Source of the DNA: an uncultured Actinomyces sp.
GTDB taxonomy: Bacteria > Actinomycetota > Actinomycetes > Actinomycetales > Actinomycetaceae
DNA length: 17,542 bases
Assembly (NCBI GenBank): GCA_945949035.1
Contig: CAMFDH010000008.1
Location: 1-17,542, forward strand
Direction of reading: 5' to 3'
Shown here piece by piece: positions 1 through 13,189 of the stretch (the stretch's first letter is position 1; the number at the start of each line of letters is the position of its first letter). The position numbers and the translations under genes are program-made. The notes under the pieces were generated by a model. It was given only the letters and a program-made list of their open reading frames with translations, had not been told where the DNA came from and did no database searches.

Positions 1-633
1 CAGCCCCCGGGCGGAGAAACCTTGCAGAATGGACAGGAGAGCCTGCCCCGCGTCGAAACTCTCATCCAGGCCACTGGCCACAGATGCCCAGGCCCGGCCC
101 GAGGAGTCGACTGAGGAGTTGAAGTTCTCCGTGAAGTACAAGACGTTACTCACATCTCGCGCCTCCTGGATGAACGTCTGGAGGATGCGCCCGACTGTCG
201 CGTTCTTGAAGGTGCGGCGACCATCTGCATCGAACGTCGAATCTCGAATGTTCAGGATCTTCTTCATCATCCAGCCGTAGCCCGGAAGTTCGAACTGCCA
301 CTCGCCATCACGAGTCTGAGTACCGGACATCATGTTTCCGGTCTGCTTGATGTTCAAGAAGCGGCAGTTCGGAAACTCCTGATAGGCCCCCGACGGATAA
401 GGCCGTCCGGTGTCCGGGTTGACCGCGTTGGAGTTGAAGACCTCAAACGCCACATCGAGAGGACGATTGATCAACTTGTAGTTGCTCGTGTTCTCATGAA
501 GATTGATTCGCAACGAAGGAATGTCGTTGAGTGGAAGCCCAATCTCCCACGATGAAGGCTGAAGGAGGAACCCCCGATAGTCGCCGTCCGCCCAGCGCAC
601 CCGAAGACGCGCCTTCATCAAGTCGCCAGCCAT
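1..633 (-). CDS. minor tail protein, N-terminal part (Gp37/Tal-like), truncated by window edge
   Basis: The frame is open from an ATG at 633 to the left edge, giving 211 residues with no stop, so the C-terminus is outside the window. The start follows an AAGGGG ribosome site and lies 12 nt after the stop of the upstream tail-tip gene, so the two are probably cotranscribed. The protein starts MAGDLMKARLRVRWADGDYR and has short beta-rich segments, then a motif EWQFELPGYGWMMKKIL around residue 115, of the sort seen in actinobacterial siphovirus Gp37-like and Tal-like proteins that sit just after the Dit protein. From gene order it should form part of the tail tip or adhesion hub. No signal peptide, transmembrane segment or catalytic motif is visible in this part. 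The tail-protein role is fairly sure from position; the exact family is an inference. Confidence 0.7.
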   Translation of the reverse strand, partial: MAGDLMKARLRVRWADGDYRGFLLQPSSWEIGLPLNDIPSLRINLHENTSNYKLINRPLDVAFEVFNSNAVNPDTGRPYPSGAYQEFPNCRFLNIKQTGNMMSGTQTRDGEWQFELPGYGWMMKKILNIRDSTFDADGRRTFKNATVGRILQTFIQEARDVSNVLYFTENFNSSVDSSGRAWASVASGLDESFDAGQALLSILQGFSARGL

Positions 634-645
634 GATTCCCCTTAC

Positions 646-3600
646 TCACCTATTGGCGGCACGCGCACGAATGACCAGCTCACGATCGACCGCGTCACCG
701 TCGATGGCGGTCATCGAAATGTTCACCCCGGATGTGTGATCCAGCTTCTGCGCCGCCTCGTTCCATGTCAGCTTGTGCGTCAGCATCAACGGGCCATTAC
801 GGATGTAACGGAAGTTAGACCAGGCAGCCACCCCGTCAATCCGGTCGATGAACTCGGACCAGGACTCGCCCGTCTCCAACATGGTCTTCTTGTTGGAGAT
901 GTAGCACCTCATGTTGTCCGTGTTGCAGTACAGCCACTCCCCGTTGTTCAGGTTCACGCCGACCGGATCATCCCAGGCCACGCCGGTCTGCGACCAGCGG
1001 TCCACCAGCGACCACGACGCAAGATTCCGGTTTCCCCCCGGACCGCCCTGCACCCGGATGATCATCGAGTAGACAGGCACTGAGGAAACCTTGGCAACGA
1101 CACACCGCTGCGAGTTCCCTCGACCCTCGAACGCCTGCATGTAGACCTTGTGGCTGCGCCACTGGCCCGTCGGCACGTTGAAGACCGCCGTGGTCGTCAG
1201 CCGCAACGCCGCATGGTCGTACTCCGGCGCCGAAAGCGACTCCAGCTGAGCGTTGGCGAACTCCCCGTACGGACGGTTCGTGTCCGTCGGATCGTGCTCC
1301 GTGTCCGACATCAGGAAGATGCCCCGATACCGCTCCAGCCTGACCGACACCCACTTGCCTGTCCCGCACAGGGAAACAAAGTCGTTGTACCGCTGCCGCA
1401 GCATCGACTGGCTCTTCGCGGTGATCTCCACCTCGAAGGTGACCTTCATGGTGTCGAGCGGGTCATGCCACATGGCGATCTGGCCGTGCCACATCGGGAT
1501 CTCCAGGTCGAACCGCCGAGGAGAGATCGCCGACGCCCACTCAGTACCCTGCATCAGCTTGATGCCGTACTGCGGCTGAGTCAGGTTGAAGTCGTTGATG
1601 AAGTACCTGATGCACCGGTCCTTCGGCTCTTCGACCTCCTTCCCCTCGGGGTCCTGCGCGATCTGCCCGACAGCCTCGACGAAGTCCGTGAAGACCTCCG
1701 TAGTGCCCTGGCTCAGGTCGGCGGCACTCCCCGACGCCGACATGCGGTTGCGCAGAGTGCGTGAGACCTCGATCTGCACACCACCCCCGTTGAGCAGTGC
1801 GGTGGGGGTCACCTGCCCGGTAGCCGCCATGGTGGCGCCTGCCACGTTCCGGTTGACGATGTTGGCCGGGTACTGCTGATCCCCCCAGCCGCCCCCTTCG
1901 CGCCCCCCGTCGACAACATTGAAGCCCTTCTGGCGGAGAGCCTGGATGGTGCGCTGGCGGTTGTACGTGTCCAGCCCTCCGACGTAGGCCACCCCACCGT
2001 CCGGGTCATCCAGGTCATCAGCCCGGCCGTGATAGCTCCAGGAGTACTCGACCTGGTTCTGTAGGGCGAGGCAGTCAGGGTGGTCGAAGAGGACGGAGGG
2101 AATGCGGAGAAGGTTGCTGTTGTCCGGCGCCGTGGTTCCCTTCTTGCTCTCGACGCCGAAGAACTCGTGCCCGTACTGATCGGCGACGCCCTGGGCCATG
2201 GCGAGTGTCATCAACTCCTGCTGGTCGCCATGGATCGCCAGGTGCGAGACGTTGCTTCCCCGGGTGACCAGGTGCGTCTCATAATTGTCGGCGCTCTCGT
2301 TGTTGACGACCTCCTGCCAGCTCCGGTACGGAAACCGGTTGGCGATGGTCCTCAGGTGCGCCCGGCGAGGCAGTGTCTCAGACACCGACCAGCCGAACAT
2401 CAGCTTCGGCTCGCCGAGCTGGTCCCAGATGTTCAGCGCCTCCGGCTCGCGGATCTCCAGGCTCAGCTCGGTGTTGCGGATGTGATCCTCGATCAGCGTC
2501 GCCGTCGGCGCGTGGATGATCGTGAAGTGCGTGTTTCCGATGCTGGCCGGGTACTTCGGATTGGTTGAGGCGTTCCACATGTTGCCGTACACGGAGTAGA
2601 TGTACTCACCGAACAAGCACCAGGACTGCCGCACCACCGGGGCAGGTACTTCCGGAACCACCCAGATCGGTGCGGTGAAGTTCTTGTTCCGGAAGGCGGT
2701 CATGTCGTACACGTAATACGAGTCGATACCTCCCTGCCGCCGGAATACGCCCACCCGGTTGTTCGCCCAGTCCATCGACGGCGCTAGCCGCGTCGACCCG
2801 GAGGGGAAGACATCATAGATGTCAATATCACTGTCGCCCTTGTTGTACACCTTGTCGGCGACATACCGAATGCGGCAAATCTTCTTGCCGTAGGCGTTAC
2901 TGCCGATCGACAGTTCCGTGGCATCCGTGGCAAGCCACAGGTAGTACTGGCCCCCAACGTATTCGACGCCTCCCAGTGATGCGCCGTGATCGAAGCCCTT
3001 GCACCACATCCTGGAGACCAGGTTCCCGCTCGCGTCGACACGGTTCACGCAGATGTCCCCACGCGCCGAACGTGCGCCCGCCGGAGGAGCAACAGACTCC
3101 CCAGGGACGACCTGGTTGTCCGAAATGATCTGCGTGAAGAACATCTCCATAGTCGTCGGCTCCTGGCACGCCTGCTGATGCGCTCGGCCGTAGGCCAGAG
3201 TCACCTCCTTGCCGAGCACCTGCGTGGAGAACTCGCCGACATCGAACGGCCGGTCCGCCGCCGACACGGCGCTCTCATGCACCACGGAGGAGATGGCGGC
3301 AACGAAGTCGGCGAACGTCTGCGTGGTCGGCGAGGTGTCCTCGTCCGAGGCGTTACCGGACTCCACGAACTGATTCCGTAGCGCCCGGTTCAGCTCAATC
3401 TGCACACCCTTTCCGGACGCGGTCCGGTTGGCGATGTTGGCCGGATCGTCACCGTTCAGAGAGCCGTCCGTCGCCACCACGGCCGCGATGCCCTTGGCGT
3501 TCAGCGCCGCCACGACCCGATCGCGGTTGTAGAGGTCCAAACCGCCGACAAACGCGGTCGGTGTGGTGGTCCCGGCGGTTGCGTCCGAAACGCCGTGATA

Positions 3601-4533
3601 GCTGACGCAGTACTGCGACTGGGCGACCAGCGCCACGCACGCGGGATTGTCGAACCGGGTCGAGGTGATGTGCAGGTCGGCGTTGTTGATGGGCTTCCGG
3701 CCCACCATCGACCAGTACTTCTGGCCCTCCGCGCTGGCCACCTCACGGGCCAACGTCGTAGTCATCCGCTCGACCGCACCGCCGTGGATCGCAATGTGCG
3801 CCCACTTGGACGACGCCGAGATCTGCTCGACCTCGTAATCCGTGTCCAGTACCTCACCAGCGGCGAGATCAGCCCACCTGTTGTACTTGTCGTACGTTCC
3901 GAGGTAGTCCGACAAAGCCTTGACAAAAGCGGTGTAACGAGCCGATTTCGGGCTCGACAGGTCATCTGGGTCAGTGACAAGCGTCTTGCGGAACGTCAGA
4001 TCCAGCTCGACATTGACGCCCCGGCCGGTCCTGTTCCGGGCCGCAACGTTGTTCGGATCCAGCGCGTCCCCGCGCTCACCTCCTGTGGCGTTACCCTCCT
4101 CGGACTTCTTCACCACCTGAAATCCGGCAGCTGTCAGCACCTCGGCGACGCGATTCTGCCGCGTGGTGTCCAGGCCCCGAACCCGGACCTTACCCAGATC
4201 CCCCGGCAGCTCAGCCACGTCCGAGATGGCGTGCACAGCGAGGGTGTACGAGGCATTCTTCTGAAGCGCCAAGCACTGCGGCTCGTCGAAGTTCGGCGCC
4301 TGGATACGCAGCCGTTGGTTGTCGGCCGGGACTGTGGTGTCGTGCAAATCCAGCGCGTACCAGCTGTATCGATTGGCCGTCGCCACGTCCGTGACGATGT
4401 CCGTGGTCAGTCGCTCCAGCGCTCCACCGTGAATGGCAATGGCCGACCACTGCGACCTCCGGTCGTTCTTCGTGACCGTGTAGTTCGCCGTGGACTCGGA
4501 GGCCACCAGGGCAGCCCAGTTCGCGTAAGCCAT
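646..4533 (-). CDS. tail-tip protein: three PGA-hydrolase-like domains, TagC-like propeller and Dit-like C-terminus
   Basis: This is a 1295-residue protein with an ATG start behind GAGGAA, 10 nt after the tape measure stop. Three copies of a poly-gamma-glutamate hydrolase (PghP/YjqB, Gamma_PGA_hydro) pattern are visible. Domain 1 (about 1-210) has AIHGGALE (H35, E40), LAVH (H101) and VNVEL (E176). Domain 2 (about 215-425) has AIHGGAVE (H250, E255), SYHG (H313) and VQIEL (E380). Domain 3 (about 738-965) has AIHGDQQE (H768, E773), SYHG (H835) and VQIEV (E922). The family is a zinc-dependent, carboxypeptidase-like hydrolase of gamma-glutamyl links; these H/E residues are the expected metal and catalytic positions. 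Between domains 2 and 3 (about 430-735) lies a region with DHGASLG and YLWLAT that resembles the P68 RBP/TagC-like propeller. The end (about 970-1295) resembles a distal tail protein, as expected directly after a tape measure. The likely role is a tail-tip depolymerase acting on the target cell surface; the substrate is inferred. Confidence 0.83.
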   Translation of the reverse strand: MAYANWAALVASESTANYTVTKNDRRSQWSAIAIHGGALERLTTDIVTDVATANRYSWYALDLHDTTVPADNQRLRIQAPNFDEPQCLALQKNASYTLAVHAISDVAELPGDLGKVRVRGLDTTRQNRVAEVLTAAGFQVVKKSEEGNATGGERGDALDPNNVAARNRTGRGVNVELDLTFRKTLVTDPDDLSSPKSARYTAFVKALSDYLGTYDKYNRWADLAAGEVLDTDYEVEQISASSKWAHIAIHGGAVERMTTTLAREVASAEGQKYWSMVGRKPINNADLHITSTRFDNPACVALVAQSQYCVSYHGVSDATAGTTTPTAFVGGLDLYNRDRVVAALNAKGIAAVVATDGSLNGDDPANIANRTASGKGVQIELNRALRNQFVESGNASDEDTSPTTQTFADFVAAISSVVHESAVSAADRPFDVGEFSTQVLGKEVTLAYGRAHQQACQEPTTMEMFFTQIISDNQVVPGESVAPPAGARSARGDICVNRVDASGNLVSRMWCKGFDHGASLGGVEYVGGQYYLWLATDATELSIGSNAYGKKICRIRYVADKVYNKGDSDIDIYDVFPSGSTRLAPSMDWANNRVGVFRRQGGIDSYYVYDMTAFRNKNFTAPIWVVPEVPAPVVRQSWCLFGEYIYSVYGNMWNASTNPKYPASIGNTHFTIIHAPTATLIEDHIRNTELSLEIREPEALNIWDQLGEPKLMFGWSVSETLPRRAHLRTIANRFPYRSWQEVVNNESADNYETHLVTRGSNVSHLAIHGDQQELMTLAMAQGVADQYGHEFFGVESKKGTTAPDNSNLLRIPSVLFDHPDCLALQNQVEYSWSYHGRADDLDDPDGGVAYVGGLDTYNRQRTIQALRQKGFNVVDGGREGGGWGDQQYPANIVNRNVAGATMAATGQVTPTALLNGGGVQIEVSRTLRNRMSASGSAADLSQGTTEVFTDFVEAVGQIAQDPEGKEVEEPKDRCIRYFINDFNLTQPQYGIKLMQGTEWASAISPRRFDLEIPMWHGQIAMWHDPLDTMKVTFEVEITAKSQSMLRQRYNDFVSLCGTGKWVSVRLERYRGIFLMSDTEHDPTDTNRPYGEFANAQLESLSAPEYDHAALRLTTTAVFNVPTGQWRSHKVYMQAFEGRGNSQRCVVAKVSSVPVYSMIIRVQGGPGGNRNLASWSLVDRWSQTGVAWDDPVGVNLNNGEWLYCNTDNMRCYISNKKTMLETGESWSEFIDRIDGVAAWSNFRYIRNGPLMLTHKLTWNEAAQKLDHTSGVNISMTAIDGDAVDRELVIRARAANR

Positions 4534-4543
4534 CAGGGTTTCC

Positions 4544-7500
4544 TCACAGCGTTCCGTTGAGCGCCGCCGCGTATGCCAGCGAGCGGTTGATCGAGATCGA
4601 GGTGGGCTCGTCCCTTGGGTAGGTGTTGTTCACCGTGATGACGGGTCCCATGTTCGTGCGGGGGAGCTGAACCTTGCGGTCCGCGTTGCGGCTGACCTGA
4701 TTGACGAGAGTGTTAGCGGCTGCATTCATGGACGCAGCGGCACGCTGCATCATCAAGGACGAATGACGGTCGCCTCCGCCCTGCACCATGCCCCCGTTGG
4801 CGTAGTGGAAGGGCTGAGAGACCGACGCCTTCGCTCCCCGAGCGTTGATCTTCTCCAGCAACGCCCGGTGCTTCTTCGTCGCGGCGGCGTTGACGACGAA
4901 CTCGCCGTTGGACAGCCAAGCGGAGATCTTGTCGTCCCTGGGGCCGCCGGGCCCAGTGATGTATCCACCCGAAGCGGCCTGCACACTGCGCGAACCCTGA
5001 TCGATCTGGCGTCGGTAGGTGGTCTGCACCGTGTTCGCGTACGCCGTGGCAGTGCGACCGTTCAGACTACTCAGCGCGGTGGAGATCTGGGCGATCTTCG
5101 GCGAGGCGTTGTCGATGAGGTTCGCGGTCCCGGCGACGGTCTTCCCGTTGAAGCCGTCCATCACCTTGATGATCCCGCCGAGCTTGTTCGTCACCAGGTC
5201 TTCCAGCTCTGCCTTGCCCTCGGCGTCGAGCTGCGACTCGTTGCCGAGCACAAAGTTGATGAGAGCCTGGAAGAGCGCACGGAACTCGGTGTCGTTGAAC
5301 TTGCCGTCGCCGTTGACGTCGAATTTTCCGGTTGCTTCCTCGCCAAGCACAAGGTTGGCCAGTCCGGTCACCTTGGACCGGAACTCGGAGTCCTCCATCG
5401 CGGCCTTGCCCTTGACGTCGAGCAGCCCCATGACCTCCTGGAGCCGGACCCACGCCTCCAGCTGAACGATCGACGCCTTGGCCGGGGCGTCGTCCATGTC
5501 GATGGGGATCTTCGCCTTCTCCGCCGAGGCCAAGGTCTTGACGATGGCGGCGATGCGGTTGAAGTCGGCAGCTGTCTTCGCCTGGTCAAAGAGCACATCG
5601 ACCTCGGGCCGGATCTTCAGCTTGTCGGCCGTGGCGTACGTCTTCATGAGCTTGCCGATGTCAGCCCCGGCCTTGACCGCATCGAGAGCCACCTCGACGT
5701 CGATCTTCGGCTTCTTCTTGCCCAGCTCCTTGATCATCTTGTCGTAGGAGGCGACGATGTTGTTGAAGTCCTCCGGACTATCGGCGTCCTTCAGGGCCTT
5801 GCTCAAGCCGGAGGCGATGGTGTTGCGGGCCTTGGCCGACACGTTCTCCAGGGAGGCGATGCCCTTCAGTAGGCCACCTGCCAGCGCCTCGGTACTCTCC
5901 GCGCCGAGCGCCGCCAGGCGCGGCTTCAGCTTCTGAAGCTCTCCCGTGGTCAGCTGCGCCAGCTGCTGAATCATCGGCGCCGCCTCCGGACCCAGCTCGG
6001 CCAAGCCCTGGGTGATGTCCGCACCGAGGGTGCCGGAGATCTTGATGAGGTTGGCCGACCAGTTCTGCTGCGCCTGGGCGATCTTCTCCAGCTCGCGCAG
6101 AAAAGTGTTCAGGTTGCCCTTGGCACTCAACGAGAACTTGGAGACCGCGTCCTCCGAATCGCCCATGGCCTTCTTCGCCGCCGAGGCGAAGGCGTCCAGC
6201 GGAGTGCCGAAACCCTGAAGACTCTTACCCAGATTCGAAACGGCCGTTGCAACACTCTCGGCAGTCTGGTCCAGATCTTCGAGGTTGTCGCTGGTCAGCT
6301 TGATCTTGCCGCCCGCGACCACGGCCTCCTGCCCAGCCGTCTGAAGTGCATCACCCAGAAGGTCCTGGACAGTGCTGGCCTTCAGCGCCTCGTCGCTGGT
6401 GTCCCCGATGGTCTGCCTCAGCGCCTCCAGGAAGTCCTTTGCCCGGGTCGCCGCAGCCGCCTGCTCCACCAAGCTCTTGCCGTACTCCGTGTTCAGCATG
6501 CCTGGAGACGACCCGGCGCGGCCCATGTCGATGGTCTTGTTCAGATCCTTGATCGCCGCGTCAAGGGTTCCAGTGGCGGTTTCCGGGTCCCGCAGCGCCT
6601 TGGTGAGGATGTCCCCAACCTTCACGCCGGAGTCGCCAAGCTGATCCAGGGCCGTCTTGGAGAGCTTCGACCCATCAGCCAGCTTCGAGTTCGACAAGGC
6701 CGCCTCGGTGGCGTTGGTCAGCCACATCTTCGTCTGCGCGCCGATGGCCACTGTCGACTCGGCGAGGGCGGCATTGGTCCGCTTGATGCCCCCTTCAGCG
6801 TCATCGAGCTTGCTCAGGTAGACCTGAGCAGCCTCCGCACCCTTGCCGTGAGCAGCCGCCTGCCGCTCCAGCTCCGCCCGGTTTCCTGCCGTAGCTTCGA
6901 TTGCCCGCTTCTGCGCCTGGGCCTGGTTGAGCTGCCGGTTTGCCAGCTTGTCGTTTTCGGTGGAAAGGTCGCTGTACGCGTTGCGGACGAGGCGAATGTT
7001 CTCGCCAGACTTCTTGAACTCCTCAGTGTCCGCCTTGAGGGCGCTGACCAGACCGTCAGTACCGCCAGCAGCCTTGATCGAGGAGTCGTAGAGCTTGTCA
7101 GACTCCGAGCGAAAGTCCACCATCGACGCGATCAGAGGACCGAGAACCGCCGTCACGCCGAAGATGGCGATACCCCACGGCCCGAAGGCCAATGAAGCCG
7201 CCCGGGCCCGCAGGGCTGCGAGCTGTGTCGCGGTTCCCAGGGCCGTAACGCCTGATGCGCCTGCAAGACCGGCAACGGCTGCCTGTTGCGACGTGGAGGC
7301 CATGATGCGGTTCGCGGTGGCTGCCTGGGTAGCCGCCACTGCCTGGCGCTGAAGAGCGGCAGAAGAGGCAAAAGTCGAATTGGCGAGCACCTGCTGCGAG
7401 GCGACTGCCTGACCCGTCGCCATGACGCTGCGCTGCATCGCGGCGGCACTGGCCGAGCTGGCTACCGCCATCCGGGACCATGATGCGGACGAAGCCTGGT

Positions 7501-9529
7501 TTGCAGCCACCTGGCGCGCCGTCGCAGTGGCTGTGCTGTTCATCGCTGCGCCCATCGCGGTGATGGAGGCGGCAGAACGAGCAGCTGCCGCCTGACCGAC
7601 GGTCATCTGGCTGTTCGCCAGACGAAGACTGTTGGCCATGTTCACCGACGCGGCGGACGTTGCCGCCAGCTCCCCACGCATCGCCCGGTATGCCGTACCG
7701 ATGGTGAGGGTGGATACGCCCAGGTTGCGCTGAAGCTCGGACGTAGCAATGAGTGACTGAATGGTCTTGGAGAGGATGAGCTGGTAGGCAACAAACGCCG
7801 CACCGCCAGCAACCACCAAGGCAGTCAACGTACCGAAGACGGGCACGATGGGCCCGAGGGATGTCAAGGTCTTCATGACCCACGCCAGAGCTTCTGCCGC
7901 TGTTCCGATGGCTGCCGCAAACGGGCCTCCGGCCTGGGCGGCGAAGTTCTTGAACTCATCGGAAAGGTTCTGGAGCTTGGCCGCCGTGGTGTTGAAGATA
8001 TCCTCGGACTGCCGCTGAAGCTCTGTTCCCTTGGACCATTCCAGGTTGGCACTGGCAAAGGACTTGGACAGCACCTCGAAGTTGTTGCCCAGACGGGTGA
8101 AAGTGTCGATATCTCGGACCGCGTTGATGCCGAGGTCCCGCAGTACCGTCTGGAACCCTCCGGACTCCTGAGCGGCCCCCTTAAGGCCACGAACGAAGGC
8201 GAGGAAGAACTGGTCCGGATTGGTGTTGCGGAGGTTCATCACCTCCTTGCCCGTCATGTTCATAAGGGAAGCCAATTTGCCGAGGGACTGGCCGCCGTCC
8301 TGGATCGCGGAGTCCAGCTCCCCGAAGACACGGGTCAAAGAACCTCGGGCCAGCTCAGGACGCACACGCAGGGTCGCCAGAGCTGATGCCAGGCCAGTGA
8401 CCGCCTGGGCCGAGAGGCCGAAGACGTTGGAGACGGTGGCGATGGACTCGTTGATCCGCAGGATCTCCTGCTCGGTGGCGGCCGAGGCCGTACCGAGGGC
8501 GAGGATGGCGGAGCCTAGGTTCTCCATCTGGCTGGTGGGGACCTGCTGCATCTCGGCGATGCGGCCGAGCAGCAGTGTCGTCTCCTCGGCGGCCACGCCG
8601 GTGGTCAGCGAGAACCGGGCCACGGTCTGCGTAAAGGCGTCCAGCTGGTTGGCGGTAACGCCGATCTGGGCGCCGAGCTGACCGATACGGGCGACTTCCT
8701 CGAAGCTGATCGGCATGTCCGCAGCGATGGCCTGGAAGGCGTCCTTGAGCCCGGCAGCTTCCGCTGCCGCAGCTGAGACGACGCGGGTGACCTGGGCGAA
8801 CGCCTGCTCCTGACTGATGGCTGACCCGGCCAGGGTGGTTCCGATGGCCTGGAAGACCTGGAGTAGGCCCCGTCCTTGCTGTTCGATCTCGCCGAGGGAG
8901 GAGCGGACCGCGAACGAGGACTGCCCAAAGCCTCGCATGCCCTGGCTGGACCGCTCCAGCTCGGCGTTGAGGCGCCTCTGGGCGTTCGCGGCGCGCTGGG
9001 CGGCGTTCTCCACCCGCTGCTGCTCAATGGCCAGCCTGGCGGCTGCCTGGGCGTTCCGCTCGGCCGTCTGGGCCTGCTTGACGTCCATCTGGCCGACCGA
9101 GCGGATGATCTGGTAGCTGCGGGCCACCTTCTGGAGTGCAGAGGCCAGCTGGTTGTACAGGTTGACGGTGCGTCCGACGCGTTCCGCTTCCTTGGCGGAC
9201 ATGCCGTTGACGTTGCCGAGCGCGGTGCGGAGCTGGTCGAACGCCTTGGCCATCTGCTGGGGGCCCTTGGAGCCGTCGATGCGGCTGAGGGCCTGCATGG
9301 CGGAGGCGTACTTCTGGGCGGCGGAGGAGATCTGGTTGAACGCGGAGAGGAGCTTGAAGAGGTCGGCCGAGACCTTTTTGTTCGTCGCCTCCAGCTGGTT
9401 CAGCTGTACGTGGAGGTTCTGGAAGATCTTGGTCATGGACCCGCCGGAGCGGGTGACCTCGTTGGCGGCCTGAGAGAAACCACGCAGGTCGACCGAGATT
9501 CGAGCTGTGGCATCGAACTGTGCGGCCAC
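4544..9529 (-). CDS. tape measure protein (TP901-type), 1661 aa
   Basis: The protein sets tail length and fills the tube before injection. It begins at a GTG (9529) preceded by GAGG that overlaps the stop of the second chaperone. Residues 1-200 are coiled-coil-like (Q/A/E-rich). About 206-490 match the TP901 core style, with motifs such as SQEQAFAQVTRVVSA, GAQIGVTANQLDAF and LRVRPELARGSLTRVFGEL. Two hydrophobic segments near 559-586 and 781-801 are probable membrane spans, with an A/S/Q-rich stretch between them. About 1273-1365 hold KxKI repeats, and 1369-1447 three EF-hand-like repeats, the middle one DVNGDGKFNDTE (1404-1415) being a near-canonical calcium loop. The C-terminus has repeated short segments typical of tape measures. 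At roughly 1.5 angstrom per residue this length would give a tail near 250 nm (a rule of thumb). It follows the chaperones and precedes the Dit-like protein, the standard siphovirus order. Confidence 0.95.
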   Translation of the reverse strand: MAAQFDATARISVDLRGFSQAANEVTRSGGSMTKIFQNLHVQLNQLEATNKKVSADLFKLLSAFNQISSAAQKYASAMQALSRIDGSKGPQQMAKAFDQLRTALGNVNGMSAKEAERVGRTVNLYNQLASALQKVARSYQIIRSVGQMDVKQAQTAERNAQAAARLAIEQQRVENAAQRAANAQRRLNAELERSSQGMRGFGQSSFAVRSSLGEIEQQGRGLLQVFQAIGTTLAGSAISQEQAFAQVTRVVSAAAAEAAGLKDAFQAIAADMPISFEEVARIGQLGAQIGVTANQLDAFTQTVARFSLTTGVAAEETTLLLGRIAEMQQVPTSQMENLGSAILALGTASAATEQEILRINESIATVSNVFGLSAQAVTGLASALATLRVRPELARGSLTRVFGELDSAIQDGGQSLGKLASLMNMTGKEVMNLRNTNPDQFFLAFVRGLKGAAQESGGFQTVLRDLGINAVRDIDTFTRLGNNFEVLSKSFASANLEWSKGTELQRQSEDIFNTTAAKLQNLSDEFKNFAAQAGGPFAAAIGTAAEALAWVMKTLTSLGPIVPVFGTLTALVVAGGAAFVAYQLILSKTIQSLIATSELQRNLGVSTLTIGTAYRAMRGELAATSAASVNMANSLRLANSQMTVGQAAAARSAASITAMGAAMNSTATATARQVAANQASSASWSRMAVASSASAAAMQRSVMATGQAVASQQVLANSTFASSAALQRQAVAATQAATANRIMASTSQQAAVAGLAGASGVTALGTATQLAALRARAASLAFGPWGIAIFGVTAVLGPLIASMVDFRSESDKLYDSSIKAAGGTDGLVSALKADTEEFKKSGENIRLVRNAYSDLSTENDKLANRQLNQAQAQKRAIEATAGNRAELERQAAAHGKGAEAAQVYLSKLDDAEGGIKRTNAALAESTVAIGAQTKMWLTNATEAALSNSKLADGSKLSKTALDQLGDSGVKVGDILTKALRDPETATGTLDAAIKDLNKTIDMGRAGSSPGMLNTEYGKSLVEQAAAATRAKDFLEALRQTIGDTSDEALKASTVQDLLGDALQTAGQEAVVAGGKIKLTSDNLEDLDQTAESVATAVSNLGKSLQGFGTPLDAFASAAKKAMGDSEDAVSKFSLSAKGNLNTFLRELEKIAQAQQNWSANLIKISGTLGADITQGLAELGPEAAPMIQQLAQLTTGELQKLKPRLAALGAESTEALAGGLLKGIASLENVSAKARNTIASGLSKALKDADSPEDFNNIVASYDKMIKELGKKKPKIDVEVALDAVKAGADIGKLMKTYATADKLKIRPEVDVLFDQAKTAADFNRIAAIVKTLASAEKAKIPIDMDDAPAKASIVQLEAWVRLQEVMGLLDVKGKAAMEDSEFRSKVTGLANLVLGEEATGKFDVNGDGKFNDTEFRALFQALINFVLGNESQLDAEGKAELEDLVTNKLGGIIKVMDGFNGKTVAGTANLIDNASPKIAQISTALSSLNGRTATAYANTVQTTYRRQIDQGSRSVQAASGGYITGPGGPRDDKISAWLSNGEFVVNAAATKKHRALLEKINARGAKASVSQPFHYANGGMVQGGGDRHSSLMMQRAAASMNAAANTLVNQVSRNADRKVQLPRTNMGPVITVNNTYPRDEPTSISINRSLAYAAALNGTL

Positions 9530-9534
9530 TACAG

Positions 9535-9936
9535 CTACCTCTTGCTTTCCTCCGCGCTGTACATCTCGGACCGGGATGGAAGAGGTTCATCCGGCCAGGC
9601 ACTCTTTGGCACCGGAAACCGGAACTCCCCTCGGGGCTTCTTCCGGTTGCTGCGACGGTCGTTCTCCTGATCCTTCTCAACCTCGGCGCACCCGTAGCAG
9701 GTGGTCGACTCGATCTCGAAGACGATGTTCCGGTCCGTTGAATGACCGATCCACGCAGGAGTGCCGCAGTGCGCGCAGGTCTCCGTCTCCAGGACCGTCA
9801 ACGCCGTGGCCAGCAGCCGGTTCCTCTCGTCAGCCCAGTTCGGGGCCTCCCCCGTCAAGAGCGTCAGGGGCGGCAGGGACCAGGAACGGGCCGTCTTGAG
9901 CACCGGCACCAACCACCGGTTCTTCTCGCGGCTCAT
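9535..9936 (-). CDS. tail assembly chaperone, downstream frame (gpGT-like extension) with zinc-ribbon cysteines
   Basis: This 133-residue reading frame overlaps the end of the first chaperone in the +1 frame and stops just before the tape measure. The ATG at 9936 has no ribosome site, and coding-like sequence continues upstream of it in the same frame (GFLADA before the Met), so it is best read as the C-terminal part of a frameshift product, as in lambda gpGT. The fusion would have about 365 residues: 228 from the first frame, then LADA and the 133 here. Four cysteines (C54, C57, C80, C83) in two CxxC pairs form a zinc-ribbon-like module, with a basic C-terminus. It should act in the cytoplasm with the tape measure during tail assembly. 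The role is inferred from position and the frameshift layout. Confidence 0.8.
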   Translation of the reverse strand: MSREKNRWLVPVLKTARSWSLPPLTLLTGEAPNWADERNRLLATALTVLETETCAHCGTPAWIGHSTDRNIVFEIESTTCYGCAEVEKDQENDRRSNRKKPRGEFRFPVPKSAWPDEPLPSRSEMYSAEESKR

Positions 9937-10633
9937 TGCGTCCGCCAGGAAACCCGGCGTCCACCTTCTCGGCCCAGTCGGCCGACGAGTCGAGGGACTT
10001 GTTGAGGGTAGCCATCAGGCGCACAGACTCCGAGGAGATCAGCGCGTCGAGCAGCTGCATGAAGCCCACGCTGTTCGGCGGGTCCTGCTCGGTGCCGTCG
10101 GCGAGAACGATCTTCGTGCAGTAGGCGGTGAGCTGGGCAGCGAGAATGGCCTTGGACTTGGCGGTCAGGTACTCCAGGTCCGTGTCGTCCTTGCGGCCGT
10201 GCTTCTTGTGGAACTCCTTCTCCGCCTGCCGGACGACCGCGCCGAGCTTCTGGGCAGTTCCGCCCTGGAAGACCAGCTTCAGCGCGGACTGCCGGATCTT
10301 GCGCTCCAGCGCATTGATCTTCGGGGCCAGCTCGGCGGTGACCTTTTCGATCTTCTCCAGCTCTGCCGCCAGGTCTTCCGCTTCCTCGTCCACGAAAGAC
10401 CGGGTGGAGGACTCGGCCATGTTGGCCTGGATGCGCATGATCTCCCGGCCGCGCTCCGCGTGCTTGTCGTACTCCTGCGACAGTTCGTAGAGGTCGATGC
10501 CGCTGCGCTGGTCGAGATAGACCGTGTGCTCAAACTCGGGGAAGGTCGCCGTCCCCGAGATGTAGGCGTTGAAGTCGAAGACGGACGGGTCGGCGGCCCG
10601 GTCCGCCGCCCCGCCCTGGTGCTGCTCATTCAT
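9830..10633 (-). CDS. tail assembly chaperone, upstream frame (gpG-like)
   Basis: This 267-residue protein starts at an ATG behind AAGGGG, 37 nt after the major tail protein stop. It lies between the major tail protein and the tape measure, where siphoviral tail chaperones sit. The N-terminus has VFDFNAYISGTATFPEF and an acidic, helical stretch with coiled-coil character (about 70-140: E/K/A-rich). The last 39 residues, after F228, are out of frame with the downstream chaperone and Pro/Gly-rich, as expected of the unshifted tail of a gpG-type protein. At codons 227-229 (GGG TTT CCT) the ribosome may shift to the +1 frame to make the longer gpGT-like product. It is assigned by position and architecture rather than a diagnostic motif. 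Confidence 0.85.
   Translation of the reverse strand: MNEQHQGGAADRAADPSVFDFNAYISGTATFPEFEHTVYLDQRSGIDLYELSQEYDKHAERGREIMRIQANMAESSTRSFVDEEAEDLAAELEKIEKVTAELAPKINALERKIRQSALKLVFQGGTAQKLGAVVRQAEKEFHKKHGRKDDTDLEYLTAKSKAILAAQLTAYCTKIVLADGTEQDPPNSVGFMQLLDALISSESVRLMATLNKSLDSSADWAEKVDAGFPGGRNEPREEPVVGAGAQDGPFLVPAAPDALDGGGPELG
9947..9955 (-). promoter_or_regulatory. probable +1 programmed ribosomal frameshift site (GGG TTT CCT)
   Basis: On the minus strand, frame 0 reads GCC GGG TTT CCT. The TTT is codon 228 of the upstream chaperone (9952-9950). The downstream chaperone frame is offset by +1, and at this site it reads TTC (9951-9949). A Phe tRNA with anticodon GAA pairs better with UUC than UUU, so a shift by one base gives a stronger match. 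The site resembles influenza PA-X UCC_UUU_CGU and sits about 15 bases before the ATG of the second frame. An SD-like AAGGTGG lies about 9 nt upstream. The +1 frame is open from a TGA near 10016, so the shift must happen between there and the first-frame end; a -2 shift cannot be excluded. Confidence 0.6.
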
Positions 10634-11405: not shown

Positions 11406-12038
11406 TTACTCAGCTGCTCCGCCAAAGACCAGACCCAACGTCAACTGCTCCCCCGCCCCAAGAGACCGCACCGCCGCTCCCCGCCGCGTGCGCTCCCGCC
11501 CCCGCGCATTCACACACGTACGGCAAGCCCGCCAGCCCGAGGGCGTCATGATCAGGTTGGCTCCGGCGTACGCGTGCCCCTTCGGGCAGTGGGTTTTCCG
11601 GGCGTTCTCCGCACAGAAACCCCTGCCGAGGAGGGAGTTCCCCCGCTGGGTGACCGCCTGGAGGTGCCACGGATTCCCGCAGGGTCGTACCCGGCATCGA
11701 TGATCCAGCTCCACGAGCTTCCCGTTGGGGTGTTCGGGAATTTCACCCCGCAGCTCCTTGTAGGCGTACCGGTGGGCCTTCTCCTGGCCGCCGCCGGTCT
11801 CCTCGTCGAGGTTGAAGACCCCGTATCCGCCGCTATCCAGGGCGCCGCGCCAGATCCAGCAGTCGTCGACCTCCCCCTGGTCGACGTAGAACCAGAATCG
11901 CTCTGACTCCCTGCGGCCGTAGACCTTGGTCGCCTTGGGCGGGTAGCGGGCCGCCCAGGACGCCTGATGAGTGGGGCACATTCCCCACTTGCTCCGGACT
12001 TCCTCGCAGCCTTCCTGCCAGCACCGTCGATCCGTCAT
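11406..12038 (-). CDS. HNH homing endonuclease
   Basis: This 210-residue protein has its start taken at 12038 (MTDRRCWQEGC), because this gives the usual N-terminus of actinophage HNH proteins, though a start at 12074 or 12245 is also possible and the ribosome site is weak. Zinc-binding residues C6, C11, C21 and H24 form an N-terminal knuckle. The HNH core shows CWIWRGAL, then AHRYAYKELRGEIP and LDHRCRV..CGNPWHL (H113, N122, H125). A second knuckle near the end has THCPKGHAY and CRTC (C151, H155, C172, C175). It is flanked by hairpins on both sides (12078-12115 and 11336-11372), as an independent cassette between the tail-terminator-like and tail tube genes. Such enzymes nick or cut DNA and promote their own spread; target and activity are not known here. 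Confidence 0.92.
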   Translation of the reverse strand: MTDRRCWQEGCEEVRSKWGMCPTHQASWAARYPPKATKVYGRRESERFWFYVDQGEVDDCWIWRGALDSGGYGVFNLDEETGGGQEKAHRYAYKELRGEIPEHPNGKLVELDHRCRVRPCGNPWHLQAVTQRGNSLLGRGFCAENARKTHCPKGHAYAGANLIMTPSGWRACRTCVNARGRERTRRGAAVRSLGAGEQLTLGLVFGGAAE

Positions 12039-12077
12039 GCTCGAATGATGAACGATTCTGACGGATTCCGGCATGAT

Positions 12078-12115
12078 GCAGGGGCGCCTCGTCCACCACA
12101 GCGAGACGCCCCTGC
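12078..12115 (-). terminator. hairpin between tail-terminator-like and HNH genes
   Basis: Arms GCAGGGGCGCCTCG (12078-12091) and CGAGACGCCCCTGC (12102-12115) pair at 13 of 14 positions around a 10-nt loop. It lies 10 nt downstream of the stop at 12125 and would stop transcripts of the structural genes before the HNH gene. Confidence 0.65.
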
Positions 12116-12124
12116 GGTATCTGG

Positions 12125-12763
12125 TCAGGCCGGAGAACCCGCCCGTCGAGACCGGGCCCGCGCGTTGATGCAGGTACGGCAGCGCCTCTTCCCGTCCCCC
12201 TGAATCACCGTGTTCACCGCGTCGTACGGGTGCCCCTGCGGGCAATGGGTGCGCTCGGCGTGAGGAGTCACCGTCTGCCGCGTAGAGGCCACCGACAGAG
12301 GCGTGGAGTAGAAGTCGCCTCGGTAGAACGTCGCCTTGTAGAAGCGGATCTGGTCACCGATGCCGACGGGCAGCGGGTCCCTCACGGTCGCCGAGCCGTC
12401 CTCGATCAGGCGCCCCTGACCGGCCGGAGAGAAACCGGTCAGGAGCACCCGTGTGGCGTCCTCCAGCTGGAGCAGCGAAAGTCCGCTGGGGGCCACGCTT
12501 TCCACGGCGAAGTTGCCCTGCTGGGCGTCCGCCTCGTCATCTCCCGGCTCGTCGCACAGACCGGCCACATAGTCGTCGTCCGAGGTCGTTGACCGGGTCA
12601 GCTGACCGAACCACAAGATCACGAAGGGCTTGATGAGCCCCGTCGGGTCATGCGGGACCTTCGAGTTCTCCGGAACGCCCTCCAGGAACACCTTGGTCGA
12701 GGGCAGGTTGTCCCGCAGTCTCTCGTAGATGGCCATCTGCCAGGCCATGACGACGGAGGCCAT
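12125..12763 (-). CDS. tail-terminator-like protein with C-terminal HNH-type zinc knuckle
   Basis: This 212-residue protein starts at an ATG immediately after the stop of the HK97-gp10-like gene (TAG followed by ATG). Residues about 1-165 (MAWQMAIYERLRDNL, IKPFVILWFGQLTR, FYKATFYRGDF) fit a small tail terminator or completion protein by position, between the HK97-gp10-like and major tail genes. The last 43 residues are different: THCPQGHPY, GKRRCRTCINAR (C174, H178, C195, C198) copy the C-terminal knuckle of the neighbouring HNH endonuclease, with 19 of 42 aligned positions identical. This part is not expected in a tail terminator and looks like an added module from a nuclease. The structural call is by position; the fusion is seen directly in the frame, with no internal stop. 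Confidence 0.72.
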   Translation of the reverse strand: MASVVMAWQMAIYERLRDNLPSTKVFLEGVPENSKVPHDPTGLIKPFVILWFGQLTRSTTSDDDYVAGLCDEPGDDEADAQQGNFAVESVAPSGLSLLQLEDATRVLLTGFSPAGQGRLIEDGSATVRDPLPVGIGDQIRFYKATFYRGDFYSTPLSVASTRQTVTPHAERTHCPQGHPYDAVNTVIQGDGKRRCRTCINARARSRRAGSPA

Positions 12764-13159: not shown

Positions 13160-13189
13160 GTCGATGGAAGCGATGACCGTTCCCCTTCC

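Follow-up and report, generated by a model that had tools for sequence, protein, structure and literature searches.

Three PghP-type hydrolase domains and a propeller precede the Dit domain of a phage tail protein in an Actinomyces bin

The stretch of DNA analyzed here, called the window below, is the complete 17,542-base contig CAMFDH010000008.1 (C8) of a 1.69-Mb, 303-contig bin of an uncultured Actinomyces sp. Its minus strand holds a phage tail operon, in which one gene encodes a 1295-amino-acid protein composed of three hydrolase domains of the PghP type, a propeller, and the distal tail protein (Dit). The gene stands in the order of a known tail operon and its C-terminus has the Dit fold; the metal-site residues of the hydrolases are conserved, their substrate pocket is changed, and the copies lie on one branch of a domain tree.

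The fused dit gene and its domains

646..4533, minus strand: fused dit gene, 1295 amino acids (hydrolase copies 1 and 2, propeller, copy 3, Dit); open reading frame with three PF05908 stretches, relatives P0001-P0007
3898..4533, minus strand: hydrolase copy 1, residues 1-212; PF05908 at 103 bits, residue table
3274..3897, minus strand: hydrolase copy 2, residues 213-420; PF05908 at 159.7 bits, residue table
2329..3252, minus strand: propeller of the phage receptor-binding type, residues ~428-735; fold matches to phage receptor-binding proteins
1639..2319, minus strand: hydrolase copy 3, residues 739-965; PF05908 at 68.3 bits, residue table
649..1623, minus strand: Dit (distal tail ring) domain, residues 971-1295; fold matches to Dit chains

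A sequence-only reading of this gene had claimed three poly-gamma-glutamate (gamma-PGA) hydrolase-like domains and a Dit-like C-terminus on a structural tail-tip gene adjoining the tape measure. Both claims are borne out: all three copies exceed the curated PF05908 cut-off of 22 bits in the Pfam profile scores and have intact zinc-site residues, and the C-terminus gives Dit fold matches in a gene order collinear with that of phage Satis. The Dit domain contains both the ring and the galectin-type fold, the top matching chains being tail tips of SPP1, 80alpha, TP901-1, p2, and monocin. A PghP-like fold match is displayed for copy 2; the fold list has one row per entry, taken by copy 2, and says nothing against copies 1 and 3. 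The propeller that had been placed between copies 2 and 3 is present and is of the receptor-binding type, as its fold is that of phage receptor-binding proteins. Compared with the propellers of phi11, 80alpha, P68, and NF5 (PF21311), it falls below the cut-off by sequence (Phage_RBD_prop profile, 19.0 bits versus 23.7) and sits inside the Dit extension.

The window protein shares its Dit fold and its position after the tape measure and before a Tal-like gene with the Dits of SPP1 (gp19.1), TP901-1, p2, and Satis (gp61), but has about 965 extra residues at the N-terminus, whereas the Dit stands alone, with 280 amino acids, in both Satis and Frankenweenie. The hydrolases expected inside a tail-tip gene are thus indeed fused to it, more precisely as an N-terminal array before a Dit that is free-standing in these two phages. 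Evolved Dits with carbohydrate-binding modules are likewise functionalized for host contact. They carry the binding modules in galectin loops (PMC7291167; this and the other papers are cited from the available parts of their texts), whereas the enzyme-like domains of the window protein precede the ring domain and are not in galectin-domain loops, so that it does not belong to the evolved Dits. PF05908 proteins are also encoded among the tail and baseplate genes of two Staphylococcus Herelleviridae, phages with contractile tails; unlike the window protein, those of Alsa_2 (CDS0251, hydrolase plus GDPD) and PSU4 (single domain) have one copy and no Dit part by Pfam. Among the matches listed from the open-access literature, the available parts of the papers give no account of PF05908 on a Dit. 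The protein may be described as a putative enzyme-armed Dit.

The two genes that flank dit in the operon are:

4544..9529, minus strand: tape measure protein, precedes dit in the operon; phrog_17594 at E 3e-64, 48% identity over 728 amino acids to Satis gp60
1..633, minus strand: Tal-like gene by position, N-terminal part, truncated where the contig ends; 32% identity to Satis gp62 residues 1-197 over 221 alignment columns

On the minus strand, homologs of Satis gp50, gp52, gp55, gp56, and gp57 are followed by a chaperone pair, the tape measure, the 1295-amino-acid gene, and the start of the Tal-like gene. The gp57 homolog is the major tail protein, 74% identical to that of Satis, and from it onward the order (major tail protein, chaperones, tape measure, Dit, Tal-like) is collinear with Satis. 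The fused gene thus stands where a Dit gene is found, immediately after the tape measure and before Tal, the latter being identified by its position and its homology to the 1108-amino-acid gp62.

Metal sites and substrate anchors

Replacement by alanine of H40, E45, H78, H103, or E165 was reportedly deleterious in PghP, T80A nearly abolished its activity, and R171S abolished that of PghL (PMC6506827). PghP of phage phiNIT1 (MEROPS M86, PF05908, PDB 3a9l) and PghL/YndL of B. subtilis share PF05908 with the three window copies, all of which keep equivalents of the zinc ligands H40/E45/H103, of the catalytic E165, and of R171 (residue table); the PghP fold is shared by copy 2. The corresponding residues are H35/E40/H101, E176, and R182 in copy 1, H250/E255/H313, E380, and R386 in copy 2, and H768/E773/H835, E922, and R928 in copy 3. 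The substrate anchors H78 and T80 are present in copy 2 and not in the other two: PghP H78-x-T80-S81 corresponds to R76-x-Q78-A79 in copy 1, to an intact H288-x-T290-S291 in copy 2, and to R810-x-P812-S813 in copy 3. Lacking these anchors, copies 1 and 3 are placed in the sequence family PF05908 and are not filed as gamma-PGA hydrolases. PghP itself is a single-domain enzyme and, in the available part of one paper, apparently no virion protein (PMC6966330), in contrast to three copies fused to a Dit with H78-x-T80 lost in copies 1 and 3. The sequence-only reading had also supposed that the copies differ, on account of HGDQQE in place of HGG in copy 3. The residue table shows this comparison to be uninformative, and HGDQQE was rejected as a sign of altered chemistry in copy 3; the copies do differ, and the informative marker is His78-x-Thr80.

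The same pattern extends to the relatives of the window protein. The residue table covers 43 fused copies from 13 proteins, cut by alignment columns, with approximate copy labels in P0008-P0012; P0079 (partial copy 3 plus Dit) lies outside this set. Of the 43 copies, 38 retain the full set of zinc ligands plus the catalytic E165, among them every copy 1 and copy 3 of the three-copy form (16 in total). All five exceptions are copies 2, namely those of P0002 and P0003 (E45Q, H103R, E165N), P0005 (E165V), P0006 (E165D), and P0010 (H103R, E165D). Arginine stands in place of H78 in 31 of the 43. Four have H78 and T80 together, namely the second copies in the window, P0001, and P0007 and the first copy in P0008, whereas both anchors are present in 30 of 31 single-domain relatives, which come from actinobacterial genomes and from a single viral contig. 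Among these singles, L007 (a propeller match) was left out, L009 gave no hit, and the exception is a weak match that was counted (L008, 32.5 bits). Three of four other long PF05908 proteins (P0013-P0016) also have both anchors, P0013 having A for T80. Across the fused copies, the catalytic residues are retained and the known substrate anchor is substituted, so the enzyme domains seem to have drifted from the textbook target. Both the retention of the catalytic site in 38 of 43 fused copies and their loss of the anchor relative to the singles are new.

Relatives, descent of the array, and the rest of the contig

A whole-protein search of 5.8 billion proteins, in which the 7991 candidates with most shared words were scored, returned 18 relatives at E 1e-3. 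Eleven of them were scanned with Pfam; alignment A1 served for P0002, P0003, P0005, P0010, and P0011, while P0017 and P0018 were left out. P0001-P0007 are 69-92% identical over 100% of the protein and have the same domain order. P0008-P0011 (1178-1181 amino acids) have the same Dit end and no propeller. They carry four hydrolase domains, a number given by Pfam for P0008 and P0009 and by the alignment for P0010 and P0011; P0012 (969 amino acids) has three domains and Dit. The fused relatives P0001-P0012 are known from the proteins alone, without flanking genes. A 17.5-kb contig from a fragmented 303-contig bin could suggest that separate genes were joined by chance during metagenome assembly. 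Such an artefact is extremely improbable: a chance or assembly join is refuted by the seven full-length relatives and by two four-copy forms, P0009 and P0011, from named Streptomyces isolates.

A Dit-only profile search gave 73 proteins; PF05908 was lacking in 72 of these, and 70 were 277-298 amino acids long. This search excludes proteins longer than 1.75 times the query and is thus no measure of how rare the fusion is. Against 50,697 phage records, the Dit had seven matches, all Streptomyces. Copy 2 had 214 in the same records, by first name word Bacillus 138, Staphylococcus 74, Phage 1, and Listeria 1, and matched no Streptomyces record. In IMG/VR, no fused relative was found with the single query protein and no match with a degenerate pattern for FRYIRNGPL, while an alignment query found one relative, L010, a 430-amino-acid open frame with one hydrolase domain. 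A Dit search of 396 genomes of the phylum gave no match beyond the window itself, and the best 40 of 51 matches in a plasmid collection were about one hydrolase domain long, or matched the propeller. Among the long PF05908 proteins, P0013 (a Streptomyces noursei record, 1326 amino acids) combines a major-tail-protein profile, a receptor-binding propeller, and PF05908 in another tail fusion. P0014, P0015, and P0016 have PF05908 at the N-terminus; P0014 and P0016 additionally match minor-tail profiles, P0015 being outside that scan.

In a maximum-likelihood tree of 78 domains (43 fused copies, 30 singles, 5 ungrouped; L008 left out), a branch with support 100/99 separates all 43 fused copies from the 30 singles and the five ungrouped rows. 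This fits a single capture followed by duplication. Copy 3, which adjoins Dit, of the three-copy form groups weakly with that of the four-copy form (86/85). The three copies of the window are 33-39% identical to one another, and positions 1-4600 contain no DNA tandem repeats, so the copies are old. Mean pairwise identity among the eight three-copy proteins (28 pairs) is 81.9 for Dit, 77.7 for copy 1, 71.6 for the propeller, 71.1 for copy 3, and 62.6 for copy 2, the most variable domain. P0001 and P0002 match at 95-97% from the propeller through Dit, at 76% in copy 1, and at 58% in copy 2; P0001 and the window agree at 99% in copy 1, 97% in copy 2, and 83% in copy 3. Tails thus seem to have swapped the front part of the array.

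Satis and its relatives are Streptomyces phages of 184-200 kb. Frankenweenie, a member of cluster BM like Satis, is a siphovirus with a prolate head and without integrase or repressor (PMC10652959). Bin contig C147 (L050, G000:C147, 1-4344) encodes part of a primase/helicase resembling that of Satis (52%) and, in three pieces, DNA polymerase I (37-49%); with weaker matches on contigs C59, C74, and C195, it indicates that further parts of such a phage may sit in the bin. GC content is 0.639 in the window, 0.606-0.653 in six other sampled contigs, and 0.618 in C147, a composition that leaves the host unsettled.

Some features of the remaining contig were also noted. At 9535-10633, two overlapping frames match the same tail-assembly-chaperone profile, phrog_20192, strongly at its positions 206-331 (E 4e-18) and weakly at 71-200 (E 0.014). 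One of them matches Satis gp58, and a programmed frameshift is likely, as Satis gp59 is annotated as a joined coding sequence over gp58. In the C-terminal region of the tape measure (5264-5326, residues 1402-1422) there is a weak EF-hand/dockerin-like match below the Pfam cut-offs. The tail of the gp56 homolog (12125-12763, residues ~160-209) matches HNH endonuclease profiles, and the overlapping frame 11406-12245 scores just below the HNH_3 cut-off (24.7 versus 24.8); this tail gene has apparently received an HNH gene at its end (11406-12763). The gp52 and gp55 homologs are about 30 bases apart (13160-13189), the Satis glycosyltransferase genes gp53 and gp54 being absent between them. Finally, a HATPase_c_2 protein at the contig end (16793-17512), which we take to be of the anti-sigma-factor type frequent in streptomycetes, is perhaps host-derived.

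Proposed function and the substrate

We consider it probable that the protein is an N-terminally extended Dit of a BM-like phage, whose hydrolase and propeller array cuts an envelope polymer at adsorption. The gene would encode the Dit of a large relative of the cluster-BM siphophages of Streptomyces, with an N-terminus extended by tandem-multiplied PghP-type zinc hydrolase domains and a receptor-binding-type propeller. Dit and Tal, the products of the genes directly after tmp, assemble at the tail tip as hexamer and trimer, respectively (PMC9863714; PMC7291167), and a hexameric ring, as in known Dits, would display 18 hydrolase domains. During adsorption each ring subunit would present propellers for binding, and the hydrolases would locally cut an envelope polymer with gamma-glutamyl-like linkages, opening a path for the approaching tail tip. 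Copies 1 and 3 would be retained catalysts with an altered substrate pocket, while copy 2 varies most and in some relatives lacks catalytic residues. Presence of the array in the virion, its hexameric state, catalysis, substrate, and timing are what we infer.

Several observations weigh against this reading. The documented Dit decorations are in the C-terminal galectin domain and not before the ring domain (PMC7291167), and the predicted model of the N-terminal part has a predicted template modeling score (pTM) of 0.47, with poor linkers. When the tree is drawn with a midpoint root, the second copies of the three-copy proteins fall with the singles (98/87), and two captures would then be possible. 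No match to PgsB, the gamma-PGA synthase, exceeds the cut-off in the bin or in the 60 genomes searched from the same genus and family. In addition, catalytic residues of copy 2 are lost in four of the eight three-copy members, and in their copies 1 and 3 H78 is absent from 16 of 16 (all arginine) and T80 from 15, copy 1 of P0007 being the one exception.

Such losses would also suit a binding device, in which the hydrolase fold now serves to grip an acidic polymer of the envelope, similarly to the carbohydrate-binding modules of evolved Dits, and the metal sites are vestigial. Copy 2 has been retained despite the loss of E45, H103, and E165 in P0002 and P0003 and of E165 in P0005 and P0006, copies 1 and 3 have lost the PghP anchors, and evolved Dits with binding modules are documented (PMC9863714; PMC7291167). 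However, a pure binder would not need the zinc ligands and catalytic Glu that most fused copies, and every copy 1 and 3 of the three-copy form, still possess, and we regard this alternative as unlikely.

The array could instead genuinely depolymerize gamma-PGA on a host coated with it, copy 2, which has both anchors in the window, being the working copy. This seems quite improbable, as copy 2 keeps H78 and T80 in only three of the eight three-copy members. Moreover, a search of 99 genomes for PgsB gave scores over the cut-off in only two, both from the same order and outside the genus and family. At E up to 1e-3 the number of genomes with a match rises to 34, but 32 of these score far below the cut-off; among 14 control genomes, B. 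subtilis alone exceeds it. In bacteria outside the Bacillales, pghP occurs together with pgsB in just 13% of cases (PMC4497714). As the phage may have another host than the organism of the bin, the lack of a PgsB score over the cut-off is weak evidence on the substrate. Overall, gamma-PGA is not an obvious target; the protein is most likely an envelope hydrolase on the Dit ring, and its substrate may not be gamma-PGA. The tail-borne depolymerase suggested by the sequence-only reading is supported as to domains and setting, and stays a proposal as to activity and substrate.

A bolder form of the envelope-hydrolase reading, which we hold to be doubtful, is that a tail ring protein took up a hydrolase of the secreted type, which was then amplified to three or four copies and adjusted in its pockets. 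The virion would carry a crown of such zinc peptidases, directed at a gamma-glutamyl-type bond other than that of gamma-PGA, for instance the gamma-D-glutamyl bond of peptidoglycan stems in the actinobacterial wall, with copy 2 as a freely evolving specificity or decoy module.

The characterized PghP-type enzymes are free enzymes against Bacillus gamma-PGA, while here the domain is multiplied on a conserved tail ring of actinobacterial phages, which widens the range of what a Dit can carry. Mycobacteria and Streptomycetes often have PghP-like genes, mostly without reported gamma-PGA production (PMC4497714), and the fused hydrolases bear on this puzzle. Since they keep the catalytic residues and have changed the gamma-PGA anchors, they provide a concrete lead to another substrate.

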